DNA from: Candidatus Synechococcus calcipolaris G9
Lineage (GTDB): Bacteria > Cyanobacteriota > Cyanobacteriia > Thermosynechococcales > Thermosynechococcaceae
Length of the DNA: 64,000 bases
NCBI RefSeq assembly: GCF_029582805.1
Contig: NZ_JAKKUT010000001.1
Location: 303,068 to 367,067 of the forward strand
Direction of reading: 5' to 3'
The notes beneath the pieces are model-generated. The model was not told where the DNA came from, searched no databases, and worked only from the letters and a program-made list of their open reading frames with translations. The position numbers and the translations under genes are program-made. Shown piece by piece: positions 2,823 through 48,770 of the stretch (the stretch's first letter is position 1; each line of letters begins with the position of its first letter).

Positions 2823-2968
2823 AATGTTCTATGTTCTCGAAAGAAACGATGGCGAAAGGGTAAAGGGGATAATAACGTTAAAGGGTATAAAATCCCATGC
2901 AATCCTCAAGATACACTATTATCAAGGTTCTTGGGTAGTATATCCAGGATACTCAGGAGTTCAACAGG

Positions 2969-4342: not shown

Positions 4343-4356
4343 TCTAACTCAGCACC

Positions 4357-5340
4357 ATGACTAATGCACTCACCGCTAGTTCGCCCCTGGTGATTTGGAC
4401 AGGAATTGGCCTCCTCTTTTGCCGCTGGTTGCCGCCGATGATTCCCCGCTGGTTGGGGCGACTCCTCTACTGGGTGGGGGTACCGATACAGATTTTTACC
4501 CTGGTGCATCGAACGGATTTTTCCCAGTTAATTTGGTTCTCGCCGCTGTTAGCGTTTATTACGTTGGTGGTGGGGTTTGTGATTGCCCAGTTGTGTTACC
4601 CATTACAACGGCGGTGGTGTTTACCCCAATGGGTGTATTTTCGTCCCCCAGTAGTAGAGTTGGGCTTACCCCAGCAGGAGGAACGGCAGTATCAGGGAAG
4701 TTATTTACTCTCGTCTATTTTGGGGAATACGGGTTTTGTCGGCCTGGGTATTGCCACTCCCTTACTCTCTAGTAATGGTCTAGCCTGGGCCGTATTTTAT
4801 GCCATTACCCAAAATGCGGTGGGAACCTATGGCTTAGGAGCCTTTTTATCTAGCTATTACGGCCGTGATCAGAATAGTCCCTGGTGGCTAAAATTTCGGG
4901 ATGTCCTCACAGTCCCCACGATTTGGGCCTTTGGTTTGGGTTTGCTGAGTCGCTCCTGGGTGTTTGCACCGGTGGTCAGTCAGTCCCTAGATATGGAGGT
5001 GGCGATCGTGATTCCCACCGCCTTTATTTTGATTGGGATGCGCCTGAGTCAGTTACCCGGTTGGCAAAGTTTTCGCATGGCGGTTATTCCCACGGTAATC
5101 AAGGCCCTATTTTTACCTTTATTGATGACGATAGTGGTGTATCTCATGGGATTGCGGGGGGATCCAGCCCTAGCAGTGGTACTGATGGCCGGCACACCCA
5201 CCGCCTTTGCTGCCCTGATTTTAGCCGAAGAATATGAACTCAATAGTGATTTGCCCACCGCCAGTATTGCCCTGACGACGGTGGCATTGATCTTAGTTTT
5301 ACCCCTATGGATTTTTCTATTTCGGTCGGTGTTTGTTTAA
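4357..5340 (+). CDS. AEC family transporter (auxin efflux carrier-like permease)
   Basis: 327 aa, almost entirely hydrophobic, with about ten predicted membrane spans in two halves. It has the conserved AEC features: an early NTGFVGLGIATPLL segment and the late MAGTPTAFAALILAEEYELN segment, matching the P-TAF--A--Y motif of bacterial AEC permeases. These carriers export or import small organic acids or related anions; the substrate cannot be read from sequence. It starts 14 bp after the rRNA methyltransferase stop and is probably cotranscribed with it, without an obvious functional link. Confidence 0.85.
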   Translation: MTNALTASSPLVIWTGIGLLFCRWLPPMIPRWLGRLLYWVGVPIQIFTLVHRTDFSQLIWFSPLLAFITLVVGFVIAQLCYPLQRRWCLPQWVYFRPPVVELGLPQQEERQYQGSYLLSSILGNTGFVGLGIATPLLSSNGLAWAVFYAITQNAVGTYGLGAFLSSYYGRDQNSPWWLKFRDVLTVPTIWAFGLGLLSRSWVFAPVVSQSLDMEVAIVIPTAFILIGMRLSQLPGWQSFRMAVIPTVIKALFLPLLMTIVVYLMGLRGDPALAVVLMAGTPTAFAALILAEEYELNSDLPTASIALTTVALILVLPLWIFLFRSVFV

Positions 5341-5535
5341 TTAAGGTTTGATTTTCTTCACATCAGCAAGAAGAAAGATTAGGGCACTTCAAACCATAGG
5401 CTACGTCGACTCGCTCTGAGGATCCATTCCTTGATATTTTAGCGGGAAGGGAGTAATTGAGATGCCATTGAGCAAATACTGAAAAAAAGATGAAAAATGA
5501 GCTAAAATTTGTCATAACTTTTCCGAAAATAATCT

Positions 5536-6240
5536 ATGACAACTCCTAAGCCTAACAGTGTGGACAAAGCCTTTTCTGCCTTCATTAATTACCTACAGAC
5601 CAACAATCGAATCGCCAAGGCAGAGGCCAGTGATGATGCTGCAATGATTTCTTTCTTCAGCCTTGAAAATGCACTTGATGATACAGAATTAGCTGAAATT
5701 GCGGTTGCAGAAGCACGGAAAAATCCTGAAGTGAATGCCTTATTTGAAGAACGTTGGTTGCCGGGGAAACTTGATTTAAATGAATTGATCAAACTCCCAG
5801 AAGGAACTTTGGGACATGTATTTGCCGCTGATATGCTGGCCAAGGGCTTTGATCCGGATTTCTTTCATAAAGTTCCAGTTGAAAATGATATTGCCTATAT
5901 GAAAATGCTCTGGCGCAGTACCCATGACATCTATCATGTCGTTACCGGGTTTGATACCGATATTGTCGGTGAACTAGCTCTTCAGGCCTTTATGATTGCC
6001 CAGCATTCGATTCCCATCAGCATTATGGCCTATGGTGCAGGTTTGGTTGAAACTGCCCTGTACAGTCCCCAGGATTTAGATCGATTGATGCAGGAAACTA
6101 CTCGAGCCTGGGATATGGGAACCCAAACACCCGCTAAATTCTTGGCACAAAAATGGGATCAGTATTTAGATCAACCCTTAACGGCGGTTCGCGATCAGTT
6201 GGGGATTCCGAAATCCTTGCAATCTCAACACCATCATTAA
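5536..6240 (+). CDS. Coq4 family protein
   Basis: 234 aa. The Coq4 signature HDxxHx11E is intact: HDIYHVVTGFDTDIVGELAL near residues 130-150. In ubiquinone-making organisms Coq4 carries out oxidative decarboxylation of the quinone head-group and organises the Coq complex. Cyanobacteria make plastoquinone, so the substrate here is likely different and is unknown. The C-terminus ends in a short His run. A promoter should lie in the 195-bp gap upstream, where I see AT-rich sequence but no firm -35/-10. It reads toward the R-M island border and ends 206 bp before the left repeat of that island. Confidence 0.85.
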   Translation: MTTPKPNSVDKAFSAFINYLQTNNRIAKAEASDDAAMISFFSLENALDDTELAEIAVAEARKNPEVNALFEERWLPGKLDLNELIKLPEGTLGHVFAADMLAKGFDPDFFHKVPVENDIAYMKMLWRSTHDIYHVVTGFDTDIVGELALQAFMIAQHSIPISIMAYGAGLVETALYSPQDLDRLMQETTRAWDMGTQTPAKFLAQKWDQYLDQPLTAVRDQLGIPKSLQSQHHH

Positions 6241-6445
6241 ACCTGTCTCTGGAGGTGTGACCCGCGACAACTACTCCCTTGGAGCATGGGGCCCCAGTAA
6301 TATCGCTCTTCAATGACTCTAGGACAAATTAACAATTTTGACCTTGTATCGGGGCGATCATGGTCGGTTGCACTGGGCATAATAGCCACTCCTTGATTGA
6401 TTCAAGACCCGGCACATCAGGCTGATGGGAAAGTGTTCCTTCTGT

Positions 6446-6482
6446 ATCTTGGCTTCCGGTTTACCATAGACCGGCAATCACA
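6446..6482 (-). repeat. Left copy of 37-bp direct repeat (att-like), displaced 3' end of DUF1345
   Basis: This 37-bp sequence matches 12352-12388 at 34 of 37 positions in the same orientation. Read on the minus strand it encodes VIAGLW-stop, exactly the C-terminus of the DUF1345 gene at the other end of the island, followed by 17 untranslated bases. Two of the three differences are silent codon changes and the third follows the stop codon. This is the pattern expected when an element integrates at the 3' end of a gene and leaves a displaced copy of that end. Confidence 0.75.
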
Positions 6483-6583
6483 GTCCTGAATTAGAAAAAT
6501 TGCGCGATCGCTCGGATATTTACTTTGCTGATGGTCATTATTCTTGGGGAATTTTAGAAGCTCTACGCCACTATAATTTTTAG
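6473..6583 (+). pseudogene. Remnant of sucrose-phosphate synthase/phosphatase C-terminus
   Basis: A 36-codon stretch reads GNHSPELEKLRDR, then IYFADGHYSWGILEALRHYNF and a TAG stop. From memory this resembles the extreme C-terminus of HAD-type sucrose-phosphate phosphatase domains, in which a GN-x-x-PEL segment is followed by a G-ILE-HY-F ending. Upstream in this frame there is an immediate stop (TAG in the repeat), so only the tail survives. It contains a HIP1 site, so it looks native to the cyanobacterial genome. Its first codons overlap the 37-bp repeat, which may be coincidence. Confidence 0.45.
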
Positions 6584-6678
6584 TCTTAACTAAATTCTCC
6601 CTAAAAATAGATCGATTGAAAAAAAAATCGAAGAATGATCCACCTATGTAGTAGATAATACTGGGATGTAGAGTCTTT

Positions 6679-9369
6679 CTATATTTCCTTGTATTCCTTA
6701 AATCCGCTCAGGATATTAGCGAACGACTTTGGCTTATATTTTTCAAACCCTACATTGTCCACAAACGCAAAGTCATACACGATTTTTGTTTGGGCTTTAT
6801 TGACATCTGCACACCACTGCTTAAGGCGTTTCATCTTCAGGGGAACACCTAAGTCTTCTTGCCCCTTCGTTTCGACAATAACAACATAGCCATTCGTTAA
6901 GCGTACAATGAAATCTGGATAGTAATTTGAGATATTGCCATTAGCATTGACGTAATCCAGTTTGAAATGAACTGCCAGGTAGTTTTTGGCATAGGATACG
7001 ACATCCACACATTTTTCAAGAAAACTGGCAAACTCTAGTTCAAAGTGACTATCACCAATCAGACGGTTAAACACTGACTTTTTCGGGATCATATAACCTT
7101 GATCTTTAACCACAAACGGGCGTGTCTGACGTAATTTTATCCCGCTTTGTATCTCTGCATCTCCCTTGTCTCGAACCGTTAGATCGTTGATTGCTTTTTT
7201 GAATGTTTCGATGATGGTTTTTGTGGCTGCAAGTTCTGAGAGGTTGCGTATTGTGTTTGGCGATTCCAGTTCCACCGACATTCCAAACAGTAAATCTCGG
7301 ACAAATACTTTCACCTTGCCGTAGAGAACGTCATAGCCACTCACCAGTCGCAACTCTTTCATGATGGTCTGGGTGAAATAGCTCATCACACTTCGGTAGT
7401 CAGAAATTCCGGCGGTATCTAGCACTGTTGTATGGGTAATTTCGCCGGTTGTGATGTCCTTGAAAACAATTTCCCGCTGTTGTTCTTCACTGAACTGTTG
7501 ATAGGTAATAGCTTGGAAGGCAAAACCACTCGGATCAAGATTGCCTAAATTTTTGTATTCGCGATAGGCCCGTGGCGTTAAGACTGGAATTTCTATATCG
7601 AGGGCATGAATATCTTTGTCTGTATTTTCATGATCCACCTCGACGATCAGCGGTGTTTTTGGTTTTGTACCTATGCCCATTTCCCGGCGTTCTAACTGAA
7701 TCCCCTCAGCCTGAATTGACTCTACAAAATCCATAAAGGCATCCGTACCAATGACGCTGACATATTCCTCAATGTTGCCAGGATACATCTTACGCAAGCC
7801 TCGTCCTAGGGTTTGTTCAGGGAGAATGTTGCTCTTGGCAGAATAGGCCCGCAACCCGACGATGGTGGTTACATTCCGCACATCCCAACCTTCTTTAAGC
7901 ATCAGTACCGAAACAATGGCTTTATAAGGGCTTTCAGCCAAGTCAATTTCATTGGACTGTTTGCGTAAAAGCTCTAGTTCTTCCTTGGCTTTACCGGATG
8001 CTGCTTCGGAGATATCACCATTTTTCTTGGTATGGATGGTCAGTACTGCTCCGGCAAGTTCTGGATAAAAATTCTCTAAATACTCTGCTACTTCATCACA
8101 GTTGCGGGTGTCATCGGTCATCACAAACAGGATGGCTTTCTTGCCCATCTTGATATGTTCGCCATAAGCCTTGCGCCACTCGATCACCCCTAGGTCAAGG
8201 TAATCGGCATACTTTTCAGTAAATTTGGCACTTTGTTTTTCCGATAACTTATTCCGGCTTGGGACATCCGGTAGTACAGGGTGTTTGACGACATTTTGAT
8301 AGATCGCTTCTACTAAGGGGTAATCCGACACGGTTTGGACAAAGATCGCGCCGTTGTTGTGTTTCGGTGTTGCCGTCACATCTACTTGCAAACTAAGGCT
8401 GCTCCCTTTTTGCAAGAGGCGGTTATGGATGTCTTGAATGGACTTGAACCAGGCCAGTTTTGCGTCATGGATATGGTGGGCTTCGTCATTCAGTACCATC
8501 AGTTCGTTGATGTCCCGCACAATCATCCCTAAGTCCACTTTCGAGTCAGTTGTTTTACCGGTGGGACGTTTACCTAGAAAGTAATCCATCGTGTTGTCGT
8601 CATCTGGGGAGGGTATGACCTCATCATTGGAATAGACGCGGTGAATGTTGGTGAGGAAAATATTGCCTGTGTTCTGAGTTACGCTTACCTCGTCTTGGAC
8701 GTGCAGGGTGAGTTGAAAATCATCTCGCCAGTTGCGTCCGTCATAACCGTTGTCGGGTAATACGGGATCCTCAAAGAAGATACGGAGGCCTTGGAAGTCG
8801 TGATAGATACGATCCAAGACAATGATGTTGGGGGCAATGACGAGAAAGTTGCGGGATAGGTCGGAGTCGGGTTCATAGAGTTTGTGGTAGAAACTCCAGG
8901 CCAGGGCTAAACTCATGACTTTGGTTTTGCCGCTACCCGTGGCCATTTTGATCACATACCGTCGCCAGGTTTCATCAAACATACTGGCTGAAACTAAACC
9001 ACTGCTATCGAAGCGCATTAGGTCGTATTTATCTTTGGCTCCGGCAACATCGTAGAGATAGATAATGGTTTCGATGGCTTCTCTTTGGGCAAAGTAATAC
9101 TGAAAGCTACCCATAATCGTATCTTTGCCGGGTAATAGGTGTGGCTCGAAAAACCACCAATTCAAAAGGCTTTTGCTGGTATCACTTGCACCCACATAGC
9201 CGCCATCTCGAAACTCTTTGACCTTACGGCGTAACTGGGCAACTAGCGGCGGCATGAGTTTGTCCATCGTTATATCCCGCAAGGTCTCGTCTGCCGGAAA
9301 CCAGCGCACGTCTGGATCGAGGATGGCATGGGGTAAAGTCGGAAAATCAGGATGCAGTCCCATGATCAA
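6679..9369 (-). CDS. Type III restriction enzyme, Res (helicase-nuclease) subunit
   Basis: 896 aa. The SF2 helicase/translocase core begins with Walker A MATGSGKTKVMSLAL (about residue 141) and has a NDEAHH box (DEAD/DEAH motif II). A C-terminal helicase motif includes LKEGWDVRNV and EQTLGRGLRKMY. The last 120 residues hold a PD-(D/E)xK nuclease: YYPDFIVRL followed by VIVETKGQED. This is the Res layout of Type III R-M systems, which cut after ATP-dependent communication between recognition sites. The start overlaps the hepT stop by 4 bp (ATGA-type), so it is the last gene of the mod-mntA-hepT-res operon. All core motifs look intact. Confidence 0.9.
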   Translation of the reverse strand: MIMGLHPDFPTLPHAILDPDVRWFPADETLRDITMDKLMPPLVAQLRRKVKEFRDGGYVGASDTSKSLLNWWFFEPHLLPGKDTIMGSFQYYFAQREAIETIIYLYDVAGAKDKYDLMRFDSSGLVSASMFDETWRRYVIKMATGSGKTKVMSLALAWSFYHKLYEPDSDLSRNFLVIAPNIIVLDRIYHDFQGLRIFFEDPVLPDNGYDGRNWRDDFQLTLHVQDEVSVTQNTGNIFLTNIHRVYSNDEVIPSPDDDNTMDYFLGKRPTGKTTDSKVDLGMIVRDINELMVLNDEAHHIHDAKLAWFKSIQDIHNRLLQKGSSLSLQVDVTATPKHNNGAIFVQTVSDYPLVEAIYQNVVKHPVLPDVPSRNKLSEKQSAKFTEKYADYLDLGVIEWRKAYGEHIKMGKKAILFVMTDDTRNCDEVAEYLENFYPELAGAVLTIHTKKNGDISEAASGKAKEELELLRKQSNEIDLAESPYKAIVSVLMLKEGWDVRNVTTIVGLRAYSAKSNILPEQTLGRGLRKMYPGNIEEYVSVIGTDAFMDFVESIQAEGIQLERREMGIGTKPKTPLIVEVDHENTDKDIHALDIEIPVLTPRAYREYKNLGNLDPSGFAFQAITYQQFSEEQQREIVFKDITTGEITHTTVLDTAGISDYRSVMSYFTQTIMKELRLVSGYDVLYGKVKVFVRDLLFGMSVELESPNTIRNLSELAATKTIIETFKKAINDLTVRDKGDAEIQSGIKLRQTRPFVVKDQGYMIPKKSVFNRLIGDSHFELEFASFLEKCVDVVSYAKNYLAVHFKLDYVNANGNISNYYPDFIVRLTNGYVVIVETKGQEDLGVPLKMKRLKQWCADVNKAQTKIVYDFAFVDNVGFEKYKPKSFANILSGFKEYKEI

Positions 9370-9746
9370 CCCTCTTGATTTAGGTCAGTTAGCATTTGCT
9401 GGACAACAGCGATAAGGGGAGCGATGTTTTGGTTACAGGTGTTGAAGATCACTTCCTCATCCACATCAAAGTAGTGGTGAGCCAAGATGTTCCGCATTCC
9501 GATCACAAGCCGCCACGGAATCTCTGGATATTGCCCGAGAAACGCACCTTTGGTTCTATCGTCTATGTCCCGAAACGCTTCCCCCACGGACAACAAAACC
9601 ATACTGATCGAGTCGAGGTGTTCTCTGCCCGCTTCAGTGGTGAGGAAATCTTGCGGGGCTTTAATGCTGGCAAATCGTCCCGGTATTCGTTCCAACGCCG
9701 CCAAAATTTGGGTCAGTCGATCCCGTAACTGCTGCCGATCAGACAT
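9366..9746 (-). CDS. hepT: HepT-like HEPN-domain toxin (DUF86)
   Basis: 126 aa, helical, with the HEPN ribonuclease motif RNILAHHY near residue 82, matching the Rx4HxY form of HepT toxins. In characterised HepT/MntA pairs the HEPN protein is an RNase toxin and the Tyr of this motif is AMPylated by the nucleotidyltransferase antitoxin. The gene begins inside the 3' end of the adjacent MNT gene (8-bp overlap) and its stop overlaps the res start by 4 bp. Both overlaps imply translational coupling within the R-M operon. Toxicity is inferred from family, not shown. Confidence 0.85.
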   Translation of the reverse strand: MSDRQQLRDRLTQILAALERIPGRFASIKAPQDFLTTEAGREHLDSISMVLLSVGEAFRDIDDRTKGAFLGQYPEIPWRLVIGMRNILAHHYFDVDEEVIFNTCNQNIAPLIAVVQQMLTDLNQEG

Positions 9747-10053
9747 AAACAGCCTCTTGTCGTACCCTCTCCCTCAATCCCGCTGGCATCCGTTCCCGGA
9801 AATGGATCAAATCTACGGGCCGCCCTAGCCGTTCCATGAGTTCTTCCCGCAGTAGCACGACATCGAAAAGGGTTAATCGTGCCGATGGTAAGGGTTGATA
9901 AACAATATCCACATCGCTGTCGGGGTGGGCTTCATTGCGGGCATAGGAACCAAAGTAACCAAGGGCGGCTAAGGCAAATTGCTCGCCACGCTCTTGTAAA
10001 AATTGCTTTAACACCGCCTGCAAGTGTTCTTGGGTGAGGACAGCATCACTCAT
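9739..10053 (-). CDS. mntA: MntA-like minimal nucleotidyltransferase antitoxin
   Basis: 104 aa minimal nucleotidyltransferase. The GSx10DxD active-site motif is complete: [15 protein letters not shown] near residues 35-49. In known pairs MntA transfers AMP from ATP to the HEPN toxin to silence it. The start codon overlaps the mod stop by 4 bp and the stop overlaps hepT by 8 bp. With its partner intact, this is a complete toxin-antitoxin pair wedged between the methylase and the endonuclease of an R-M system. Confidence 0.86.
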
Positions 10054-12353
10054 ACATTCACCGCCAAGATCGTCATCGTGTCGTTGCCAAAAATATCTAC
10101 GACCTTCACCGCAATCTTACGTCGCCCCGCTGTGGCTTCATGGGCAACGCTCTTTAACTCCAGGGAACGATCTTTTTTGGTTCGGAAACTTTGCCATTCG
10201 TTCTCGAAGATGTAGTCCCCTGTCCATTGTTCACGGGTTTCGCCAGTATCAGGGTCTTGGATGCGGATGATCTCGCGCTTGTTCTCAAAGTCGAAATCTA
10301 CGCTCCAGTAGTCAATCCAGTCTGTCCATTGTTTCGTGAGTTGTTCTCGGTGGAGGATCCCTTTTTTGTCTTTGGTGAGTTTGATGATCTGCCCCTGTTC
10401 CACAACGACTTTGCTGCCTGTCCCACTTTTTTTGCCCAGTTCGGCTTCAGCGGTGGCGATGCTGTCCTGGGAGTAGAACACGGAGAAATCGGTTAATTCA
10501 ACTGCAATGGTGGCGGATTGTCCTTTTTTGCCGGGGATTATATGGGGCTTGACTTCAATATAGGAAACATCGTGAAAGACGACTTGATTTTTTTCTACGG
10601 CTCGTTTATCAAAGACTTCGGCGGGGATGTATTTGGGGGCGATGTCTATACCTTTGCTGCGGGCTTCATCGAGGACATTTGGAAACAGACCCATCTCGAA
10701 TTCAAAGCCAAGGATATCCACCTTTGTGATGTGTTTGCGGCGGCATTCGAGAATAATTTCTTCGACAAACAACCGTGTCACGGGTAAATTTACTGGCCCA
10801 ATCGCCACTAACCGCCCGGATCGTTTGCCGTGAAAGTGTTCAAACTGGGCCACAGGTTCGGCACGGTATGCCCGCAAAATTAACTCGATAAATGCGGCTT
10901 CTTTTTGTGCTAACTGCTGTTGTTGTTCCTGCTCCCGCAGACTGGGGTTAATACCGATGAAGTGTTGCCGCTCGTACTTACCAAGGTTGAGAATTTCAAA
11001 TGCCCGATAATCTTTACCCTCTTGTTTCAGTTGCCGTTGCACGCCGATCAGCCGCTTTCGGGTGGTGTGAATGGCAAACTTACCTAAATCCGTACAAATC
11101 CACTTACGCCCTAACTTCTCTGCTACTGCTGCGGTAGTGCCTGATCCACAAAAGAAGTCGGCAACTAGATCACCTTCATTGGATGAGGCTTTAATGATCC
11201 GTTCTAAGAGCGCTTCGGGCTTTTGAGTGGGGTAGTCAATCCTCTCGACAGCTTGCGAGTTGATTTCTGAAATATCCGTCCAAAGGTTTTGAATAGGCAT
11301 ACCTTTGAGTTCATCCGCAAAACTCTTCCGTCGAATTCTCGCATCTTTTTTTTCGGGAAAATGGAGACGTCCTTCACTATCCCATTGTTCCATCTTTTCT
11401 TTGGAGATCATCCAGCCATTCGGTGGGGATTTATAGCCTTTATAGTCGTAAATAAGATTTGGGCGATAGCCTGGATTGACTAAACTTGTGGGTTGATAGC
11501 GTCGCCCATTTTCATCAATGTATGTAAACCTCGTTTCAATGTACTCCTGATATTCGGGAGAGCCGAGATTATATTGAACATTGAGAGGTGTTTTTTGGGA
11601 CATTGCAAAATACAAGATGCTGTCGGTGCATATTCCAAAACGATTCGATTCATGAACAGCACTCGTAGTTCCGACACGACGTTTCCAAATAATCTCATTT
11701 CGGAAATTCACACTACTGAGTATTTCTTCAAGAATAGTCCGAATAAGATTACTTACTCGCCAATCGCAATGTATGTAAATACTGCCATCATCTGCCAATA
11801 AATCCCGCATCAAGATCAGCCGCTCATAGATCATCGAAATAAAGGAATCTGCACCCTTCCCCCAGGTGTCCCGATAGGCAATCTCTTCGAGAATGTTGGG
11901 CTTTTTGGTAAACGTATCGCCGCCGATCTCTATATCCATACTGAAATCTGCCCCCACATCAAAGGGCGGGTCAATATAGATCAGCTTTAATCCACCCTGG
12001 GCTTCAATCTCATCCCGCAGCGGCCCATTCTTCAAGGATGAAAGGATCAGCTTGTTGTCGCCCCAAATTAACTTGTTAGTCCATCCCCTCAGTTGCCGCC
12101 CCCGTGCATCCATTGAGAACAAATCCATCTGCATGGCAGTATCGGCTGGCTTTTCGGCTCGTGGTTCATCCACCTGCTCAATGGTTTGAAACGGCAAGAC
12201 TAAATTGCAGACCTCATTCGTTTTGCCATTCCAGACCAGTTCCACCTCCCGCTTGTCCCCAAACAGCAAGAAACGATACTTCTCCGGTAACTCCTTGTCT
12301 GCCTCCAGGTAGCGGATGATCTCCTGCTTTTCCTGATCCGTTACTTTCAACAT
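10050..12353 (-). CDS. Type III-like DNA methyltransferase, Mod subunit
   Basis: About 767 aa from the ATG at 12353. The amino-methyltransferase motifs run in beta-class order: catalytic DPPF ([13 protein letters not shown], about residue 130) first, then the SAM-binding [17 protein letters not shown] (about residue 410). A target-recognition segment lies between and after them. The protein methylates adenine or cytosine N; the recognition sequence is unknown. The frame extends to 12383, but those 10 extra codons come from the 37-bp repeat and overlap the DUF1345 gene. ATG 12353 sits right at the repeat edge with GGAAG upstream, so it is preferred. First gene of the four-gene operon. Confidence 0.9.
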
Positions 12354-41689: not shown

Positions 41690-41776
41690 TCCTAACGGCT
41701 TGGTTTTCAGCGGTGGCAAAGATTTTTAAGCCAGCACCAGAGTGTTGAGGCCATCCGCTGCAAAACCTGGTTAGGC
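41690..41776 (-). other. attC site of the higBA cassette
   Basis: 87 bp. The left core TCCTAAC and right core GTTAGGC are inverted. The inner arms TTTTCAGCGG and CCGCTGCAAAA pair with one extra base. The higA stop codon (TAA, 41771-41773 on the reverse strand) lies inside the right core. It is the terminal site of the array, 3 bp from chlG. Confidence 0.8.
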
Positions 41777-42058
41777 AACTGATAAACGTTTAACTTCTAT
41801 GTTGCCAACAGCTTGCTCAGCTTGCCATAAATCGTACTGCATTTGCTGATTGAGCCAACTTTCTGGAGATGTATCAAAGGCTTTTCCCAAGCGAATTGCC
41901 ATTTCGGGGCTAATACCTGCCCTACAATTCAAGATAGCAGATAGAGTTTTTCGACTTACACCCAGTGCCTCAGCAGCGTCTGTAACAGTCAGATTCAAAG
42001 GTTCGAGACACAGTTCTTTAAGAACTTCACCTGGATGTGGTGGATTATGCATTTTCAT
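41771..42058 (-). CDS. higA: HigA-type XRE antitoxin
   Basis: 95 aa. The N-terminus [17 protein letters not shown] leads into a helix-turn-helix with [20 protein letters not shown], then [20 protein letters not shown], which is the HigA/VapI pattern. It neutralises HigB and represses the operon. Its start overlaps the higB stop by 1 bp, and its stop lies within the attC core. It follows the toxin gene, the usual higBA order. Confidence 0.92.
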
Positions 42059-42336
42059 TAGTGGTAGTCCTCAAGATCGACATCACAAGCATCAACACCG
42101 TCAAAGGTGAACGTGATCCGCCAGTTTCCAGATACCCTCACCGCCCAGGTTCCTTTACGTTGCCCTGCAAGTTCATGAAGTATCAATCCGGGCAAGTTCA
42201 TGTCTTGCGGTGAAGTCGCAGCACTGAGACGAGCCAGAATCAGCCGAATTCGTTTGGCATGATTTGCCTGAATGCCTCGGGTGGTTCCCGACTCAAAGAA
42301 CTGCTCTAGTCCTCGATGCTTGAAACTGACTATCAT
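42058..42336 (-). CDS. higB: HigB-type RelE-superfamily mRNA interferase toxin
   Basis: 92 aa. Typical Hig[21 protein letters not shown] near the start and [20 protein letters not shown] then RITFTF near the end, carrying the conserved Arg and His residues. HigB cleaves ribosome-bound mRNA. It pairs with HigA in a complete cassette; such pairs are common in sedentary integrons and are thought to stabilise arrays. Confidence 0.92.
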
Positions 42337-42398
42337 TCATCAAGCGTAACCCATAACGTTACTAGTTACATTTCAATGATAGACAAATTTAGAAGCGC

Positions 42399-42485
42399 GC
42401 CTAACGTTCCCCTTCAGCGGCGGCTAATAACCTTTGCATCTCTACTGAGATATTCCAACCGTCCGCGGCAAGGGGGTTGTTAGAC
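42399..42485 (-). other. attC site of the GIY-YIG cassette
   Basis: 87 bp from GCCTAAC to GTTAGAC. The arms GTTCCCCTTCAGCGG and CCGCGGCAAGGGGG pair with an extra G on one strand, and the inner segment TAACCTTTGCAT is shared with two other sites. It lies 4 bp beyond the stop of the 68-aa ORF. Confidence 0.85.
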
Positions 42486-42489
42486 CGCG

Positions 42490-42696
42490 CTATTGCCCCC
42501 GTCCTGGTTTGCAATCTGCAAAACCCAACGCCTCTGTATCTAGAAAACTTGCGATCGCCATCTCTATCACTGCTTCAATGGGATATTCAATCTCAGCAGC
42601 ACGCTCAATCAGTGCCGTCCGAATTATCTCAGGCAATCGCCCTAAAATGACTTCAGCATCAGCCGGAGAAAGTTGCTCTTGAAGTTTGGCTTGCAT
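42490..42696 (-). CDS. Small cassette protein, unknown
   Basis: 68 aa, largely helical: LSPADAEVILGRLPEIIRTA then LIERAAEIEYPIEAVIEMAI and a Gly/Arg end. No family recognised. It starts 4 bp after the GIY-YIG gene stop and shares the same cassette, so the two are cotranscribed and may act together. It contains one HIP1 octamer. Confidence 0.65.
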   Translation of the reverse strand: MQAKLQEQLSPADAEVILGRLPEIIRTALIERAAEIEYPIEAVIEMAIASFLDTEALGFADCKPGRGQ

Positions 42697-42700
42697 AGCA

Positions 42701-43078
42701 TCACCTTTCAGTGGGAATCTGAGCGTTGTAAGGGGGTTCAGTGGCTCTTAGAATAATAGCTTCTAGCTCCAATAGTAGCGCGGGGTTTCCCCAATGCGAA
42801 ATGACCTGTACTGCAATCCTTACATCTTCATCGTTGTACTTGTCAAGCCATGCCCACAAAAAGGCTTTATGCCCACCACCAAAGCGACCGCGTAAACTCT
42901 TTGTTTTACCGATATAGAGTAATCCATCGGTCTTATGCCGAATTGCATAAATGCCAGGACGCGCAGGAATACTACTAAACTCACGGCTTAATAGTTGACA
43001 CTGTTCAAAGGATGTGAATGCGATCTCATCCAGAATATTTCGAGCCTGAACTTGCAACTCAGAATCATTCAATGGCAT
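42701..43078 (-). CDS. GIY-YIG nuclease-domain protein
   Basis: 125 aa. The domain begins PARPGIYAIRHKTDGLLYIG near residue 35, with GIY and YIG both present, followed by RGRFGGGHKAFLWAW supplying the catalytic Arg and a later Glu in LELEAIILRA. It is a single-domain nuclease of the size seen in homing-like or defence contexts. First of two genes in its cassette. Confidence 0.85.
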   Translation of the reverse strand: MPLNDSELQVQARNILDEIAFTSFEQCQLLSREFSSIPARPGIYAIRHKTDGLLYIGKTKSLRGRFGGGHKAFLWAWLDKYNDEDVRIAVQVISHWGNPALLLELEAIILRATEPPYNAQIPTER

Positions 43079-43307
43079 AGGAATCAGAAATCTGGCTGCC
43101 CAGAATTATATCCCCCTATGTACTCAAAGCAGGCAAACTGCTGGAGTTCCTACCCGTTGAATTTGGGACGCTGATTGTAGCCAAGCCTAGGATCATTCGA
43201 TCCGAACAAGAGAATATACTCTATTTCTTTCTTGTTAACTTCTTCATTTCCGTTGCATCGCTTGGTTCGCCGACGGGGGAAGCGCAGGTCGGCTGGCGTA
43301 GGTGGCA
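43079..43307. other. Cassette junction without recognisable attC
   Basis: 229 bp between the GIY-YIG and DUF1810 cassettes. An attC is expected next to the DUF1810 stop but no GTTRRRY/RYYYAAC pair at the right spacing is visible. Instead there is a GC-rich imperfect hairpin near 43268-43298 (CGCCGAC and GTCGGCTGGCG). A plus-strand frame stays open across it but lacks a start codon, so it is not called as a gene. Confidence 0.5.
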
Positions 43308-43751
43308 TCAGTGATGATCCAGCAACTGTATAGTTCGTTGATCACCCCTTCCATTAAAGTACTTGTCGATGATCTTGTGGAACACGGAATTGGCATTTGA
43401 GACATGCGCAAATAGTGTCGCACAGGATCGGAGCTTTAGGTCATCCGGTTTACCAAATATCTCAGTCGCAGATCTTCCCTCGATGGCCAACGCGGCCTCG
43501 CAAATTGTAATCAGGCGTGGCCCCAGAACACCATGTGTGAGATACGCGTAGGCCTCATCTGAACCCGTTATTCCGTATTTCTGGGCCGTCGAGCTGTTAC
43601 CTAGGCCGCGAAGTTGTGGGAAGACGTACCACATCCAGTGTGATTTTTTATGCCCGTTCTTGACCTCGGACAATGCGATATCGAATGTACCGTCCTGGGC
43701 TAGAACGAAGCGACCGAGGTCGAAATGGTCGTCAGTGTAGGTATCTTGCAT
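43308..43751 (-). CDS. DUF1810 family protein
   Basis: 147 aa from ATG 43751 (MQDTYTDDHFDLGRFVLAQD). DUF1810 signatures HWMWYVFPQLRGLGNSSTAQ and SYLT-like AYLTHGVLGPRL are clear. Function is unknown; the fold is distantly related to calpastatin/NADAR-like proteins. A longer frame begins with a GTG at 43781, but that lies inside the neighbouring attC site, so the internal ATG is preferred. Confidence 0.87.
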   Translation of the reverse strand: MQDTYTDDHFDLGRFVLAQDGTFDIALSEVKNGHKKSHWMWYVFPQLRGLGNSSTAQKYGITGSDEAYAYLTHGVLGPRLITICEAALAIEGRSATEIFGKPDDLKLRSCATLFAHVSNANSVFHKIIDKYFNGRGDQRTIQLLDHH

Positions 43752-43763
43752 CACGATTCTTCG

Positions 43764-43850
43764 GCGAACGGTTCCGCTCACCGGACGTAGACAACCTTTG
43801 CAGCTTAACCAACCAAACTCAACCGTTCCGGTGCAGCGGGATTGTTATAC
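43764..43850 (-). other. attC site of the peroxiredoxin cassette
   Basis: 87 bp. The left core GCGAAC is degenerate and the right core GTTATAC contains the peroxiredoxin stop codon. The arms CCGCTCACCGG and CCGGTGCAGCGG pair with one extra G, the typical extrahelical base, and the inner CAACCTTTGCAG is shared with other sites. Confidence 0.85.
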
Positions 43851-44405
43851 GGCGTGTTCTTGCAGCCAATTTATTACCTCATTGGCATTTCTATCAGGTG
43901 GAAAGACTGGATAGAAAACTTTCATAATCTTACCTTCTTCAATGATCAGCGTAACTCGCTTGATGAGATGCTTGCCTCCCACTTCAAACGTTGGCAACTT
44001 TAGCGTATTGGTAAGGTTCAATTCACGATCACTCAAAAGCTCGAAAGGTAAATGCAGCCGTGCCTTTACTTCTAACTGATAGTCAGTGCTTTGAGTGCTA
44101 AGACCGAAAACACTTGCACCCAATTCGTTTAGCTCTTGGTAATGATCTCGAAAGGTGCAGGACTGTGGCGTACATCCTCTGGCTCCGGGTATTGCATCCC
44201 ATCCATCAGGAAGAGAAATCCCAGGTTGCCCTGTCATGGGATAGCAATAAACCACGATACGACCTGCGATCGCTGATAAATCAACGCATTCACCATGAGT
44301 TGAAGGTAACGAGATCGACGGCAAAGCTATCCCCAGCAAATGATCGCAAGCACCATCATCTATTGGAATGGGCAGATCTTGCGGCAACGCTGTCAGCTTA
44401 TTCAT
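43845..44405 (-). CDS. Peroxiredoxin (AhpC/TSA-like)
   Basis: 186 aa from ATG 44405 (MNKLTALPQDL). The active-site region reads YPMTGQPGISLPDGWDAIPG then ARGCTPQSCTFRDHY, with two Cys residues 5 apart as in PrxQ-like enzymes. It reduces peroxides using thiol donors. The frame extends to 44528, but the first 41 codons run into the upstream attC site and match nothing in the family. It carries one HIP1 octamer. Confidence 0.87.
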   Translation of the reverse strand: MNKLTALPQDLPIPIDDGACDHLLGIALPSISLPSTHGECVDLSAIAGRIVVYCYPMTGQPGISLPDGWDAIPGARGCTPQSCTFRDHYQELNELGASVFGLSTQSTDYQLEVKARLHLPFELLSDRELNLTNTLKLPTFEVGGKHLIKRVTLIIEEGKIMKVFYPVFPPDRNANEVINWLQEHAV

Positions 44406-44482
44406 ATGGCTTTTTATGTCTGCGACATCCCTAATGCTAACAGATTGATTTGCAATCACTTCCTCAACCTGCAATCGAAGCC

Positions 44483-44568
44483 GTATAACGTTCGGGTTGA
44501 GCCGCTGCCAGCAACCTTTGCACAGCACCGACCAACTGTGTCAGTCCGCTCCAAGCGAATTGTTATGC
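44483..44568 (-). other. attC site of the first GNAT cassette (44563-45036)
   Basis: 86 bp from GTATAAC to GTTATGC. The arms GTTCGGGTTGAGC and GCTCCAAGCGAAT pair imperfectly, and the inner CAACCTTTGCAC matches the family. The stop codon of the GNAT gene lies in the right core. Confidence 0.83.
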
Positions 44569-45036
44569 CGCCTTATACAGCGACTTCTCCATTACGTAAT
44601 TGATGAATATTTCGCCCCGACAAGTTACCTTCTGCTCGTTAACGATTGAAAACCCCATACGTTGAAAAAATGGTTTTGCCGTGATGCTAGCTTCAGTGAT
44701 TAGATGGCTCACCCCCAAGCCTAACGCCTTTGCTTCAATCGCTTGATAAATTTGACTACCCACTCCACAACGTTGATAGTTTTTGCGGCAGTAAAAGCAG
44801 TCGATATGACCATTAGACTCTAGCTCTCCGAATCCAGCAATCACACCTTCATCGTCAGCAACATAGGTGAATCGATTTGAGCAGATCTTTTCCCAATCTC
44901 TGAAGTAAATATTGTTAGGTGCCCATGCCTCAACTTGATTACTTGAGTAATCGCGGATGTTTATTTCGCGTACTGTTTCATGAAACAACTGTGCTACTTT
45001 TTCTGCGTCTTGTTTTTCAAACAACCTTATTTTCAT
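44563..45036 (-). CDS. GNAT family N-acetyltransferase
   Basis: 157 aa. The acetyl-CoA motif A is CFYCRKNYQRCGVGSQIYQA, and LITEASITAKPFFQRMGFSI forms motif B. It resembles YafP-type acetyltransferases. The substrate is unknown; GNATs are among the most common integron cargo. Confidence 0.88.
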   Translation of the reverse strand: MKIRLFEKQDAEKVAQLFHETVREINIRDYSSNQVEAWAPNNIYFRDWEKICSNRFTYVADDEGVIAGFGELESNGHIDCFYCRKNYQRCGVGSQIYQAIEAKALGLGVSHLITEASITAKPFFQRMGFSIVNEQKVTCRGEIFINYVMEKSLYKAA

Positions 45037-45149
45037 AGGATCGCCTCATCGACAATCTAAAAACTGCCTCTTTTCCAGTAACCTCGCGCTAGTTCAACTC
45101 TAAACACTGACAGATAACTTCTAGCTACTTCCACCACCAAGAACTTGCG

Positions 45150-45237
45150 GCATAACGTTGCCCATCACCCGCCGCAGATAACTTCTGAGTTCTTACAGAC
45201 AGGCTCTCAACGGTCGGGTGCATGGGCGTTGTTAGGC
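45150..45237 (-). other. attC site of the two-gene cassette
   Basis: 88 bp from GCATAAC to GTTAGGC. The arms GTTGCCCATCACCCGCCG and CGGTCGGGTGCATGGGC pair with one extra G. It lies 41 bp downstream of the 301-aa ORF stop, the only attC here whose core does not hold or nearly touch its gene's stop codon. Confidence 0.86.
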
Positions 45238-45277
45238 GGCATTATATTATAAGGGAATAATAAAGACTTAATTATTC

Positions 45278-46183
45278 TCAACTTTCTGAGATAGAATCAG
45301 CACCCAACTGATTAGAAGTAATGCCATCGGCTTTAACAGCATTAATAAATTTATCAAGCTTAGATTTTGGTAGATTACGAGCTTCCCAATTAGGATAATT
45401 AAAAGTCAGCCAATCTCTACAGTAACTTTGCTGTAAAAGTTCTCGCATAACCCTCTTAACAGCTTCGCGAACACCTCTCTTTTTTTCAGTCGATAAATAA
45501 GCCCATATTCCAATCATTGCATCACAAATATCTTCAACTGAAAATTCATATCTTTTCCTAATAAGAAAAGCTACAACTTGTTGAATCACACCATCTGTAA
45601 ATCTTTGATCTCTCAAATTTTCAATTGGAATAGGAAGATAACCTTCAGGGATTCTCTTGAACTTCATGTTTTCTGTAAGAATCAATGATAGTTCAGTGTC
45701 ACGGATATTACCTGAATGAAACTCAATACAATATTCGCCTGTAGGTACTCGGCAAAAAGAGCATAAGAGTAACCTGTCACTATTTGTACTGTCAATAATA
45801 TCTTTAAATGTCTGTAATGAAGTGGGCAAAACAGTTACCCAAAGACTACAAAGTCTACAAGCGTCTAACGCAACACGAGCACTATTTATTAAGTCGTTTG
45901 CGTCTACAAGAAGGTAACGCCGAATCTGCTCTCCTTTTTCGTAGCTTAATGAGTTTGCAGCAGTCCATTCTGTTAAGAGAGTGTGTTTTCTAGCAGGCGA
46001 ATAAACAATTGCTTCTGGATTGACAGTATTGCCTTGCGATGTGAAGGAAGGCTCAATGCTATGGATACTGTAACCAAGTTTATGAATGGATACAGAATGA
46101 GGTCTTAGTAAAGGATGCTTACTAAATAAACCAATGAAAAGATTGGTCATTTGCAAGTTAAAAAAACTGATTTCCAGAGTCAT
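45278..46183 (-). CDS. Unknown cassette protein A (301 aa), possible nuclease fold
   Basis: 301 aa, AT-rich and without HIP1 sites, unlike the host chromosome. No family recognised. Residues 57-90 read PEAIVYSPARKHTLLTEWTA then a KGEQIRRY end. A short acidic-then-Lys pattern before a Q-I-R-R-Y helix recalls some PD-(D/E)xK nucleases, but the expected ExK is not intact. The C-terminal half is helical, with RGVREAVKRVMRELLQQSYC. It overlaps the upstream ORF by 26 bp, implying coupled translation. An internal Met at residue 12 is an alternative start. Confidence 0.7.
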   Translation of the reverse strand: MTLEISFFNLQMTNLFIGLFSKHPLLRPHSVSIHKLGYSIHSIEPSFTSQGNTVNPEAIVYSPARKHTLLTEWTAANSLSYEKGEQIRRYLLVDANDLINSARVALDACRLCSLWVTVLPTSLQTFKDIIDSTNSDRLLLCSFCRVPTGEYCIEFHSGNIRDTELSLILTENMKFKRIPEGYLPIPIENLRDQRFTDGVIQQVVAFLIRKRYEFSVEDICDAMIGIWAYLSTEKKRGVREAVKRVMRELLQQSYCRDWLTFNYPNWEARNLPKSKLDKFINAVKADGITSNQLGADSISES

Positions 46184-47360
46184 CCTGTACGTCCACTAAT
46201 CGACTAAAAGTCCTTTGGAGGTTTGTGTAAAAACGAATTGCCGTATTACCACAAGCTCCCATTGAGAGATACATACAAATAATTTCTGGATATATTTCAA
46301 AAAAGAGTTTCGCTCCATTGTGTAAATCTACAGCAAGAACGCTGCGACCTTCCCCGCTAGAGGTTGGTCTAGGTGTTCCCCAAAGCTTAAAAGGCATTTT
46401 CCCTGAGAACACTACCTCACAAAAAAGATCAACATCTTCGATTTGACTTTCAGATAGATCAAAAACGATAGGATTTCCCGTAACATGCCATTTTGTTTCA
46501 TCAGCAGTAGTCAGAATAATGTAATCGCTTTCAATTTGATAAACTTTATTTGCATAAGCATTTTGAACCTTATTAATTAAAGCTTGATGTGCAGCAAAGG
46601 AAGTTCCATTGGTAGTAAACTTTCCATTAAAATAAAGCGTTTCAATTGTGAATTCTTCTCTGGCGTGAGGTCTAGAGTATTTCATCCTCACATTCGCAAG
46701 AGAAGTCTGAGTCGCTAATTCCTTGTCTCGATTCATTAAATCCCACAACAGCCTAGATTCTCGCTGACTGCCAGAAAATTTTAGACTAAATGGTTCAGAA
46801 TTTACATATTCATTATTTTCTTTTTTAAAGAAGGAGCGGTCATGCTCAAATCGAAACCCTCTAGGTTCACTTTCTTTCTGAGTTGATTCAAGCAAGCCCG
46901 ACCATAGCCAGGTTCTGTCTAAATAGGTTTTTGAATCAACAAGTCTATTAAGTATGTCATCTAGATATTGGGCACTAGACACAGAATATGCTCGCCAAAA
47001 CCTCCGATTTGAGTCACTAATAGTATCTAGATAAAGAGTGATTGTCTCCTTGTTCCACGCCCAAGCAACTGTATAGAAACCTGCTTCGTTCGTTTCAACA
47101 ACATGAGCGTCGCTACTCTTTCTTTTTTTGCCTTCAGCTTGCACGCTTAAAAGGTCACAAAGATAGTTTCCCTCATCCCTTCTTTCTAGTTGTTGAGGTT
47201 TCCAGTCACATTCTAATAGAAAGGATTTAACAAATGAGGTGCCCCTTTCAACTTCTCCTTTGTCACGGAGTTGCTCGTATGAGTGCTGCATCTTTCTCTC
47301 TAGATATAAATACAGCTCCTCACGATTCTCTACATCTTGTCTCCCTTGCTGACGCGCCAT
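46158..47360 (-). CDS. Unknown cassette protein B (400 aa)
   Basis: 400 aa, AT-rich, no HIP1 sites. No family recognised. The N-terminus is charged and helical (NREELYLYLERKMQHSYEQL). The middle part is beta-rich and the C-terminus holds SYLS-like MYLSMGACGNTAIRFYTNLQ. No ATPase, nuclease or helix-turn-helix motif is visible, and no signal peptide or membrane span. It is the first gene of a two-gene cassette and overlaps protein A, so the pair is likely a functional unit. Confidence 0.7.
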   Translation of the reverse strand: MARQQGRQDVENREELYLYLERKMQHSYEQLRDKGEVERGTSFVKSFLLECDWKPQQLERRDEGNYLCDLLSVQAEGKKRKSSDAHVVETNEAGFYTVAWAWNKETITLYLDTISDSNRRFWRAYSVSSAQYLDDILNRLVDSKTYLDRTWLWSGLLESTQKESEPRGFRFEHDRSFFKKENNEYVNSEPFSLKFSGSQRESRLLWDLMNRDKELATQTSLANVRMKYSRPHAREEFTIETLYFNGKFTTNGTSFAAHQALINKVQNAYANKVYQIESDYIILTTADETKWHVTGNPIVFDLSESQIEDVDLFCEVVFSGKMPFKLWGTPRPTSSGEGRSVLAVDLHNGAKLFFEIYPEIICMYLSMGACGNTAIRFYTNLQRTFSRLVDVQDDSGNQFF

Positions 47361-47577
47361 AGAACGACCTATGTGTTATTGATTCCTTCGAGAAGGCTGA
47401 CTCTAGCGAGACAACCCTCAACTGTATCAATGAAACTCACACCTCATAACTAGAGTAACCGAATATAAACCATCTTCACGGAGAAAAATGTCTCTTCCAC
47501 GACATTGAAACGCTTTGAATTTTAATCATCTGAGAAAAACAGAGGAAACAAAGGGGATCTCTTGCCAAGACTAAGCA
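47361..47577. other. Non-coding leader of the two-gene cassette
   Basis: 217 bp between the first attC site and the 400-aa ORF, longer than in the other cassettes. It is AT-rich and could contain a cassette-borne promoter. No ORF or RNA gene recognised. Confidence 0.5.
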
Positions 47578-47664
47578 GCCTAACGTTCCCGCTCACCGGA
47601 CGCAGAGCGCTCCACATCCCCACCGATAACTCAAATTCGTTCCGGTGCAGCGGGATTGTTATGC
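47578..47664 (-). other. attC site of the first cassette (GNAT at 47659)
   Basis: 87 bp from GCCTAAC to GTTATGC. The arms GTTCCCGCTCACCGG and CCGGTGCAGCGGGAT pair nearly perfectly with one extra G. The GNAT stop codon lies inside the right core. This is the clearest attC in the array. Confidence 0.9.
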
Positions 47665-48138
47665 GGCAGCAATTCCCAGTGCCTTACGGAAAATAATTTT
47701 GTCGTCTCCAGCCTTGTAAAATTCTCGAATTCTCGCTTCCTCGTCATAACCACTCTTTCGATAAAATGCACGAACGTATTCAAAGTCTTTCAGTCCGGAC
47801 GTTTCTACCAGTAGCACACGCTCACCATGCTTAGTCAGCATTTGCTCAATATGGCGCAACAAAGCGGCTCCGCGTCCCTGTCTTTGGTGGTTGGGATGAA
47901 TAGCGATTAGATAGAGATTCCACGTCCCCTCTGTCATTCGTTCTGGCGCAACGTAGGCAATGCCCACTAGCTCATTATCGTGGTCGCTAAACCACATACC
48001 CTGACTGTCTGTTTTGTCACTGAAATGCTGATTTAGCATTTGGGCGAGTTCTTCAATTTGATTTGACTCAAAAAGTCCTGTCGCTTCCGCCAAAGCAAGT
48101 AATGCATTCGTGTCATTGGGCGTGGTCAATCGAATCAT
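47659..48138 (-). CDS. GNAT family N-acetyltransferase
   Basis: 159 aa. Acetyl-CoA motif A is IAIHPNHQRQGRGAALLRHI and motif B has YVRAFYRKSGYDEEARIREF. The substrate is unknown. It is the cassette closest to the integrase remnant, i.e. the most recently acquired position in an active integron. Confidence 0.89.
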   Translation of the reverse strand: MIRLTTPNDTNALLALAEATGLFESNQIEELAQMLNQHFSDKTDSQGMWFSDHDNELVGIAYVAPERMTEGTWNLYLIAIHPNHQRQGRGAALLRHIEQMLTKHGERVLLVETSGLKDFEYVRAFYRKSGYDEEARIREFYKAGDDKIIFRKALGIAAA

Positions 48139-48436
48139 AACGAGTTTTAGTCAAAGCCTTCACTTTTGCTTCCATTATTCAAGCGCCAACATTAAAATTC
48201 CCCACTACCTCAATGAGAAATTCCTGAGACGTTTGCAATTAACAGACAACCTTTCAACTACTGCCCCAACCGTTGGTTTAAGCCGCATAACTACTGATTA
48301 GGCAGCGATTAGCAGCCCAACATACCTAAGATTTAGGAAACTGCATCCTCCATAACCAAACATCGCCAGAATTGTAGCACATCAATATTGAGGTATCAAA
48401 AATTGCTAAATCTAGCATATACAAAACTTCATGGTT
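48139..48436. other. attI-like region upstream of the first cassette
   Basis: About 300 bp without an ORF. On the minus strand a GTTATGCGGC core (48282-48291) matches the junction sequence seen at the cassette borders and lies where the attI insertion point is expected. The full attI with its integrase-binding sites cannot be confirmed. An ACAACCTTTCAA segment near 48247 resembles the inner segment shared by attC sites, hinting at a decayed attC. Confidence 0.45.
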
Positions 48437-48470
48437 CACTAAAACCCTTAACTGGTAAGGGTTTTTAGTC
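48437..48470. terminator. Strong bidirectional hairpin terminator
   Basis: AAAACCCTTA and TAAGGGTTTT form a perfect 10-bp stem with a 5-base loop, extended by ACT/AGT and followed by T-rich sequence on both strands. It lies between the attI-like region and the integrase remnant. Confidence 0.75.
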
Positions 48471-48479
48471 TTTAAAAAG

Positions 48480-48770
48480 GTGAATGTTATACGGAATCAA
48501 GCAGATATGCACCTTAGCCTTAAAGGACTACAAGCCTTTGCTGCCAAGAGTTATGCTGCTAAAGTAAGAGAATATTATGCTGCATCTGTTTCCATGGAAT
48601 CCTTGCCCCCAGATACTCCCAAGCGGAAACTATTAGATCAAGTCCGCGATGCCATCAGACTAAAACACTATAGCTACCGCACTGAACAAAGTGAGGCTGC
48701 CTCAAAAATACGAGCAACCTCAGCATTAACGCGGATTGTAATCGTTTTAGTTTCCATAGCAGTTATTTAG
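48480..48770 (+). pseudogene. Truncated integron integrase (IntI) remnant
   Basis: A 96-codon frame. From an internal ATG at 48594 it reads MESLPPDTPKRK, then LLDQVRDAIRLKHYSYRTEQ, which matches the opening of IntI integrases (LDQ-R--IR--HYS-RTEQ in IntI1). After RTEQ the match ends and the frame reads a different hydrophobic sequence before TAG. The core-binding remainder and the catalytic R-H-R-Y domain are absent, so it cannot recombine DNA. Orientation is opposite to the cassettes, as expected for intI. Confidence 0.75.

Follow-up and report, generated by a model that had tools for sequence, protein, structure and literature searches.

An integron with a decayed integrase gene in Candidatus Synechococcus calcipolaris G9, one of seven related promoter-attI platforms in its genome

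We analysed 64,000 nucleotides of the cyanobacterium Candidatus Synechococcus calcipolaris G9 (contig NZ_JAKKUT010000001.1, positions 303,068 to 367,067; this whole stretch is called the window here) and found that positions 41690 to 48770 of the window hold six gene cassettes with their attC sites, headed by attI and Pc-like promoter sequences and by a remnant of the integrase gene intI. We put at about 0.9 the probability that this region is a frozen integron, in which intI is reduced to around 40 codons, the Pc-like promoter, the attI and the six cassettes have been kept, and which is one of seven such platforms in the genome. The initial annotation, made from the letters only, had described a chromosomal integron in decay, its integrase dead. 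It had also called integrons seldom described in cyanobacteria, had pointed to the closeness to chlG and had seen one integron. The description stands; the other three points do not. Moreover, the attI crossover and the Pc-like promoter directed at the cassettes were both absent from that account, so the decayed integron is now better supported than it could be then. By itself, the array of the window is a further integron of a familiar type with its integrase lost. What is new is that one genome carries seven Pc-attI platforms without an intact intI, two of them intI-less with common borders and different cargo.

The attC sites lie on the minus strand at 47578-47664 (attC 1), 45150-45237 (attC 2), 44483-44568 (attC 3), 43764-43850 (attC 4), 42399-42485 (attC 5) and 41690-41776 (attC 6, the final site, 3 bp off the stop codon of chlG). 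A covariance model built from these six sites (R1) found them and no others in the window at E<=1, with 86.4, 87.8, 77.5, 79.6 (start at 43763 in this search), 94.2 and 68.6 bits from attC 1 to attC 6. The structure was drawn by hand from the six sites aligned in gene sense and has 22 pairs. In this alignment 91.5% of the 130 cells are paired and both sides have changed in 10 of the 22 pairs. The covariation score was 0.476, compared with a shuffled mean of 0.138, and was reached by none of 500 shuffles; sliding the partner by 1-3 columns lowered the pairing to 30-45%. Since the structure was derived from the same window sequences, another model (R3) was built from other genomes as a check, trained on 12 attC sites from nine of them in an alignment fitted to R1. 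The training sites had been discovered via R1, therefore the independence of R3 concerns the training sequence and not the discovery. These training sites have 96.2% of their cells paired and changes on both sides in 13 of the 22 pairs. R3 recovered all six window sites where the initial annotation had placed them (57-91 bits, namely 71.6, 74.4, 62.5, 61.4, 91.2 and 57.2 in the same order; E 5e-28 to 1.9e-16), and its sole further match in the window at E<=1 was at site 43763 but on the other strand (E 0.5).

Two extrahelical bulges, a G in column 17 and an A in column 24, are invariant across the six window sites. In every site, read in gene sense, both lie in the 5' arm, which is the usual attC polarity and agrees with the direction of the genes. 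The window sites have the inverted R boxes, the covarying stem and the two extrahelical bases that define an attC of an integron. An Rfam scan of the window gave one tRNA and nothing else.

Upstream of the cassettes there is a leader at 48282-48425 (minus strand), with six homologous copies elsewhere in the genome by alignment and a score of 106.6 bits with a third model, R2, which was built from six platform leaders, the window copy among them, and which found the seventh platform. The Pc-like promoter lies within it at 48371-48399 (minus strand), with TTGATA and TACAAT separated by 17 nt and a TG preceding the -10 box, as seen by a consensus scan and by conservation. The putative GTT crossover triplet of the attI would be at 48289-48291 (minus strand), judging by its position and by the first 10 nt of cassette 1, which are fully complementary to the R'' box of its attC. 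The seven copies have an identity of 0.852 over the promoter block, which falls to 0.693 over the next stretch and is 0.899 over the attI, and the Pc-like hexamers and their spacing are retained. By position and by conservation among the seven copies, the array is headed by an attI whose crossover is a GTT. A terminator-like hairpin (10 pairs and a T-tail) was also seen at 48441-48465, between the intI remnant and Pc.

The divergent open reading frame (ORF) at 48480-48770 had been said to hold the N-terminal IntI motif, and it aligns to IntI across around 40 residues only. The remnant, at 48576-48713 (plus strand), is N-terminal and has no catalytic part. It showed 62.5% identity (E 3e-9) in a tblastn search of an intact cyanobacterial IntI against the fetched loci, and the NCBIfam profile PRK15417 matches the ORF at E 8e-4, far below its cut-off. 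A search of the own genome with TIGR02249 gave no intact intI at E<=1e-60, in agreement with the dead integrase first proposed, and the functional intI that defines a complete integron is missing from the window. Three TIGR02249 matches appeared in the genome at E<=0.001: an N-terminal fragment at C2:1916359 (76.9 bits) and two 22-bit matches that span positions 234-297 and belong with the general recombinases. This family also gives signals below its cut-off in 14 of 14 control genomes.

Regarding the cassettes, after insertion of a circle the left end of a cassette would be the other half of its own attC. We compared the first ten bases of the left ends of 20 cassettes from the seven platforms with the complement of their own R'' box, and the mean agreement was 8.2 of 10, compared with 6.74 for shuffled left ends (none of 20,000 shuffles reached 8.2) and 6.45 for the adjoining R' box. 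Over the set, the cassettes are bounded by matching recombination half-sites; the three that fail are dealt with below. All the cassette genes of the window share one direction, as was described before, and all the cassettes are on the minus strand. Cassette 1 (47584-48290; left end 10/10) carries a GNAT acetyltransferase gene (47659-48138; matches to rimI and other GNAT families, all under cut-off). Cassette 2 (45156-47583; 9/10) carries two genes (46158-47360 and 45278-46183) whose proteins had no Pfam, NCBIfam or PADLOC match at E<=0.01. Cassette 3 (44489-45155; 10/10) holds another GNAT acetyltransferase gene (44563-45036; Acetyltransf_10) and cassette 4 (43769-44488; 10/10) a gene for a peroxiredoxin-like protein (43845-44405; Redoxin). 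Cassette 6 (41696-42404; 7/10) encodes the HigB toxin (42058-42336; PF05015) and the HigA antitoxin (41771-42058; TIGR02607). Cassette 5 (42405-43768) has DUF1810 (43308-43751) and GIY-YIG (42701-43078) genes, both recognised by their domain matches, and a gene for an unknown protein of 68 aa (42490-42696). Between DUF1810 and GIY-YIG, at 43249-43271 (minus strand), we saw by eye the probable left half of a lost attC, which the models did not find. The minus-strand GGCGAAC at 43265-43271, also noticed by eye, is complementary to the left end of this cassette, GTTCGCC, and this is why we read cassette 5 as two cassettes probably fused by a deletion.

The initial annotation saw one integron; the genome has seven platforms and 24 more attC matches outside them. 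R1 gave 44 attC matches in the genome at E<=1 (41 at E<=0.01), 20 of them at the platforms. The platforms are the window array (I1), I2 (C2:685667), I3 (C2:1559537), I4 (C2:1044784), I5 (C2:1916888), I6 (C1:105581) and I7 (C2:1730297), and the attC sites follow the direction of the platform in all seven cases. Remnants of intI were found by tblastn at I1 and I5, the latter consisting of the N-terminal 75 aa and a short C-terminal piece. I2 and I6 have common leader DNA up to about the first intI codons, and at I3, I4 and I7 there was no IntI match adjoining Pc. Two side observations concern these platforms. Just upstream of the -35 box of I6 there is, by eye, an insertion of around 105 bp that resembles a miniature inverted-repeat transposable element (MITE), with perfect 11-bp inverted ends CTATAGCCGTC (locus L139, G000:C1:101800-110800, just upstream of 3650). 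Besides, the first cassettes of I5 (TIR-domain protein, L132 4002-5075), I3 (OLD-like AAA ATPase, L130 1716-3155) and I7 (NACHT ATPase, L178 4392-7319) look like phage defence genes.

The 24 isolated sites might suggest that the attC-like sequences form a palindromic repeat scattered over the genome instead of being recombination sites. We consider this very improbable, because the matching of cassette ends contradicts it, the sequences are diverse with covariation and are not copies, and 37 of the 44 sites have an ORF of the same sense, 60 aa or longer, ending within 150 bp of their 5' end, compared with 18 of 44 on the mirrored side. Furthermore, the attC type occurs in 63 of 65 cyanobacterial genomes with intI (E<=1e-60) and in 80 of 130 without. 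It is conceivable, and a little short of an even chance, that the isolated sites are cassettes for which IntI used attG-like GTT sites of the chromosome itself as the point of insertion. Such attG insertion has reportedly been described by Loot et al. in 2024 in other bacteria. The upstream sequence of 42 sites (the remaining two of the 44 had no readable R'' box) was searched for cassette left ends, which gave two good cases among the isolated ones, C2:582058 and C8:158030, whose upstream left end matches the R'' box across 10-11 nt. Nevertheless, no clear left end was seen within 3 kb for the rest of the isolated sites, the empty-site searches, which covered the window, I3 and I7, yielded none, and relics of older arrays would give an identical picture.

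I3 and I7 have common borders. Their left parts agree over 300 bp at 90.7%, made up of one copy of a 107-bp repeat and the Pc-attI; past the last attC they become identical again exactly from the crossover GTT, for 42 bases. The right-hand repeat is 99% identical over 109 bp, with 73 bp more in I3, and this right flank is present at these two places only. Between these borders the cargo is unrelated: the first gene of I3 encodes an OLD-like ATPase (HEC-04, E 3.6e-55) and that of I7 a NACHT ATPase (E 2.6e-10), and blastp found no common cassette protein at E<0.1. Shared borders with unrelated cassettes suggest that intI-less platforms were copied and filled separately in trans. As the simplest reading, to which we give slightly less than even odds, I3 and I7 may be two copies of one intI-less platform that received their cassettes separately, for which an integrase would have had to act in trans. 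The repeat, of 107-117 bp, has eight genomic copies (C2:1559248, 1562824, 1730008, 1734554, 1845842, 1314677 and 1044262; C8:33393) and is MITE-like, its inverted ends (TAAGTGG...CCTACTTA) being weak. As a direct repeat it borders I3, and likewise I7, on both sides; it occurs also inside the cassette region of I4, and does not flank the window array. No clear target-site duplication was seen in the alignment of the eight copies, and Rfam had no match in the five repeat loci and the I6 locus scanned. The same repeat opens another explanation, which we find rather doubtful: every platform was filled in cis by its own intI, and I3 and I7 lost it separately through recombination between repeat copies to both sides of the gene. 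Direct repeats around both would allow this, the same left boundary would result, and the intI pieces kept by the window array and I5 indicate that some platforms did carry the gene. However, it needs a repeat beyond intI in both copies as well as two losses, and neither I3 nor I7 keeps an intI match beside Pc.

Several results weigh against our interpretation of the window array and its relatives, or support it less strongly. Separate losses of intI through the repeats can also explain I3 and I7, and the integrase-less platforms may have gained their cassettes before intI was lost. Single-strand folding is weaker evidence: the z values range from -3.6 to -0.07 for the bottom strand and from -3.5 to -1.1 for the top strand, so there is no clear strand preference, and for the bottom strand of site 44483 as many as 96 of 200 shuffles folded equally well. 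The Pc consensus scan gave one promoter where 1.2 are expected by chance, so the hexamers alone are not significant and the Pc-like promoter is supported because it is conserved in seven copies, not by the scan. The left end of cassette 5 (1.4 kb) matches attC 5 at only 5 of 10 positions, and of the three cassettes of I5 two likewise fall short (4 and 5 of 10). Finally, we did not find an empty site for the window, I3 or I7: the gene neighbourhoods of chlG, DUF3370/rbfA and aroE/znuB are not conserved across the searched loci of the family, whose flanks are around 1.5 kb.

These searches deserve some detail, and some of the loci stop at contig ends. In 25 family loci read for 1.2-1.5 kb past chlG, the next ORFs differ across genera and mostly agree inside one genus (g5), and no window neighbour was matched there; the neighbours hemC, SRPBCC, RsbW-like and trmH-like had no match at E<=1e-8 in 80 named chlG loci with flanks from less than 1 kb to 10 kb. 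The most similar named chlG was that of Thermosynechococcus sp. M46_R2017_013 (89%), in a comparison from which the record of the window itself may have been absent. We did not find rbfA within around 1.5 kb of DUF3370 in 29 loci of relatives, nor znuB around aroE in 28. In genome G005, aroC, which in the own genome is two genes before I7, adjoins DUF3370 in a different arrangement. The initial annotation had pointed to the 3 bp between the end of the array and chlG. The distance is right, but the genes following chlG vary between genera of the family and a second attC of the same genome, at C1:441849, likewise ends 3 bp from a convergent ORF, therefore the closeness to chlG carries little weight.

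The attC type is also widespread. With R3 at E<=1e-4, matches were found in 143 of the 195 genomes sampled from the class, the own genome included; 22 candidates were scored per genome, so the counts per genome are floors. TIGR02249 was above its cut-off in 62 of the 195 genomes and reached E<=1e-60 in 65, therefore genomes with attC are more than twice those with intI over the cut-off. Taking E<=1e-60 for intI and joining the results by hand-copied genome handles, 63 genomes had both, 80 attC only, 2 intI only and 50 neither. In an R1 search at E<=0.01, 44 of 57 relatives had matches, and the 13 without serve as a rough negative control. The earlier statement that cyanobacterial integrons are seldom described is thus not borne out, as a published attC model exists too. 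The leader is rarer: across 58 genomes including the own, R2 found several platforms in two others, G018 (4) and G036 (13), single weak matches (E 0.004-0.005) in four and none in 51. The genomes with intI and no R2 match probably have an attI of other sequence. The fetched stretches of G036 hold 15 distinct R2 platforms (E up to 0.002), and this genome has two full-length intI. On its contig C7 there are tandem Pc-attI units before one or two genes (L163, G036:C7:336000-355900, 2826-10273 minus), some of them beside an apparent half attC and five with a common upstream repeat that is also found alone. Genome G002 has eighteen TIGR02249 matches at E<=0.001, many of them fragments, which may be many integron copies or remains. 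Among the matches listed for the relatives, intI fragments with just the N-terminal part (25) are more numerous than those with just the C-terminal part (5) in a tally made by hand, with pieces at contig ends and split genes left out. This excess is only suggestive and may reflect the keeping of the neighbouring Pc-attI.

Excerpts of PMC2426708, PMC9668308 and PMC8618304 name Cyanobacteria as integron hosts, and a covariance model built from cyanobacterial attC sites is mentioned in an excerpt of PMC8352920; those sites come from the same phylum as ours and may be of the same type. In full-text searches, which leave subscription journals mostly outside, none of the matches listed had as its subject the integrons of cyanobacteria or several attI platforms that lack an integrase. 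The sedentary chromosomal integrons of Xanthomonas (PMC12444791, in the part available) are likewise chromosomal, with frequent inactivation of intI and more stable arrays; there the intI locus is downstream of ilvD, whereas here seven related platforms of one genome have all lost intI. The window array has at least two attC and no functional intI nearby, as in a cluster of attC sites lacking an integrase (CALIN), but it retains an attI and Pc-like block and fits an integron remnant better. In the available part of PMC10969869, MITE-flanked class 1 integrons of Acinetobacter have a copy of a short repeat at either end, as I3 and I7 do; ours are cyanobacterial, without intI, and present as two copies with different cassettes in one genome. 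The tandem units of G036 resemble the delta-attI-type cassettes of mobile integrons, with attI within arrays, described in the accessible part of PMC12901181, but they hold the promoter and the end of attI ahead of one or two genes.

As a mechanism, the integrase would in the past have captured circular cassettes by recombining their folded attC strands at the attI. The array would now be frozen and probably forms an operon of acquired genes that Pc would transcribe, with acetyltransferases, a peroxiredoxin-like protein, HigBA and proteins of unknown kind as cargo. Some integrase-less copies, such as I3 and I7, may have been filled in trans before the last intI of the genome decayed. The usual picture of an integron has a single integrase, attI and array at each locus, and treats integrase-less arrays as dead ends. 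An arrangement in cyanobacteria that could be called distributed integrons, in which one or two integrases fill and empty in trans many copied integrase-less Pc-attI platforms, is a possibility to which we give slightly less than even odds. The evolving unit would then be the promoter and landing site, copied between MITE-like repeats in the case of I3 and I7, and the integrase would be expendable. The own genome would have lost its last integrase, and G036 would keep two intact intI for around 15 platform matches.

The presence of this attC type in most of the sampled cyanobacterial genomes means a large pool of captured genes. The OLD-like, TIR and NACHT first cassettes fit the link between integrons and phage defence that is reported in the available part of PMC12444791. 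If filling in trans is true, the platforms would be movable landing and expression sites and intI a shared helper.

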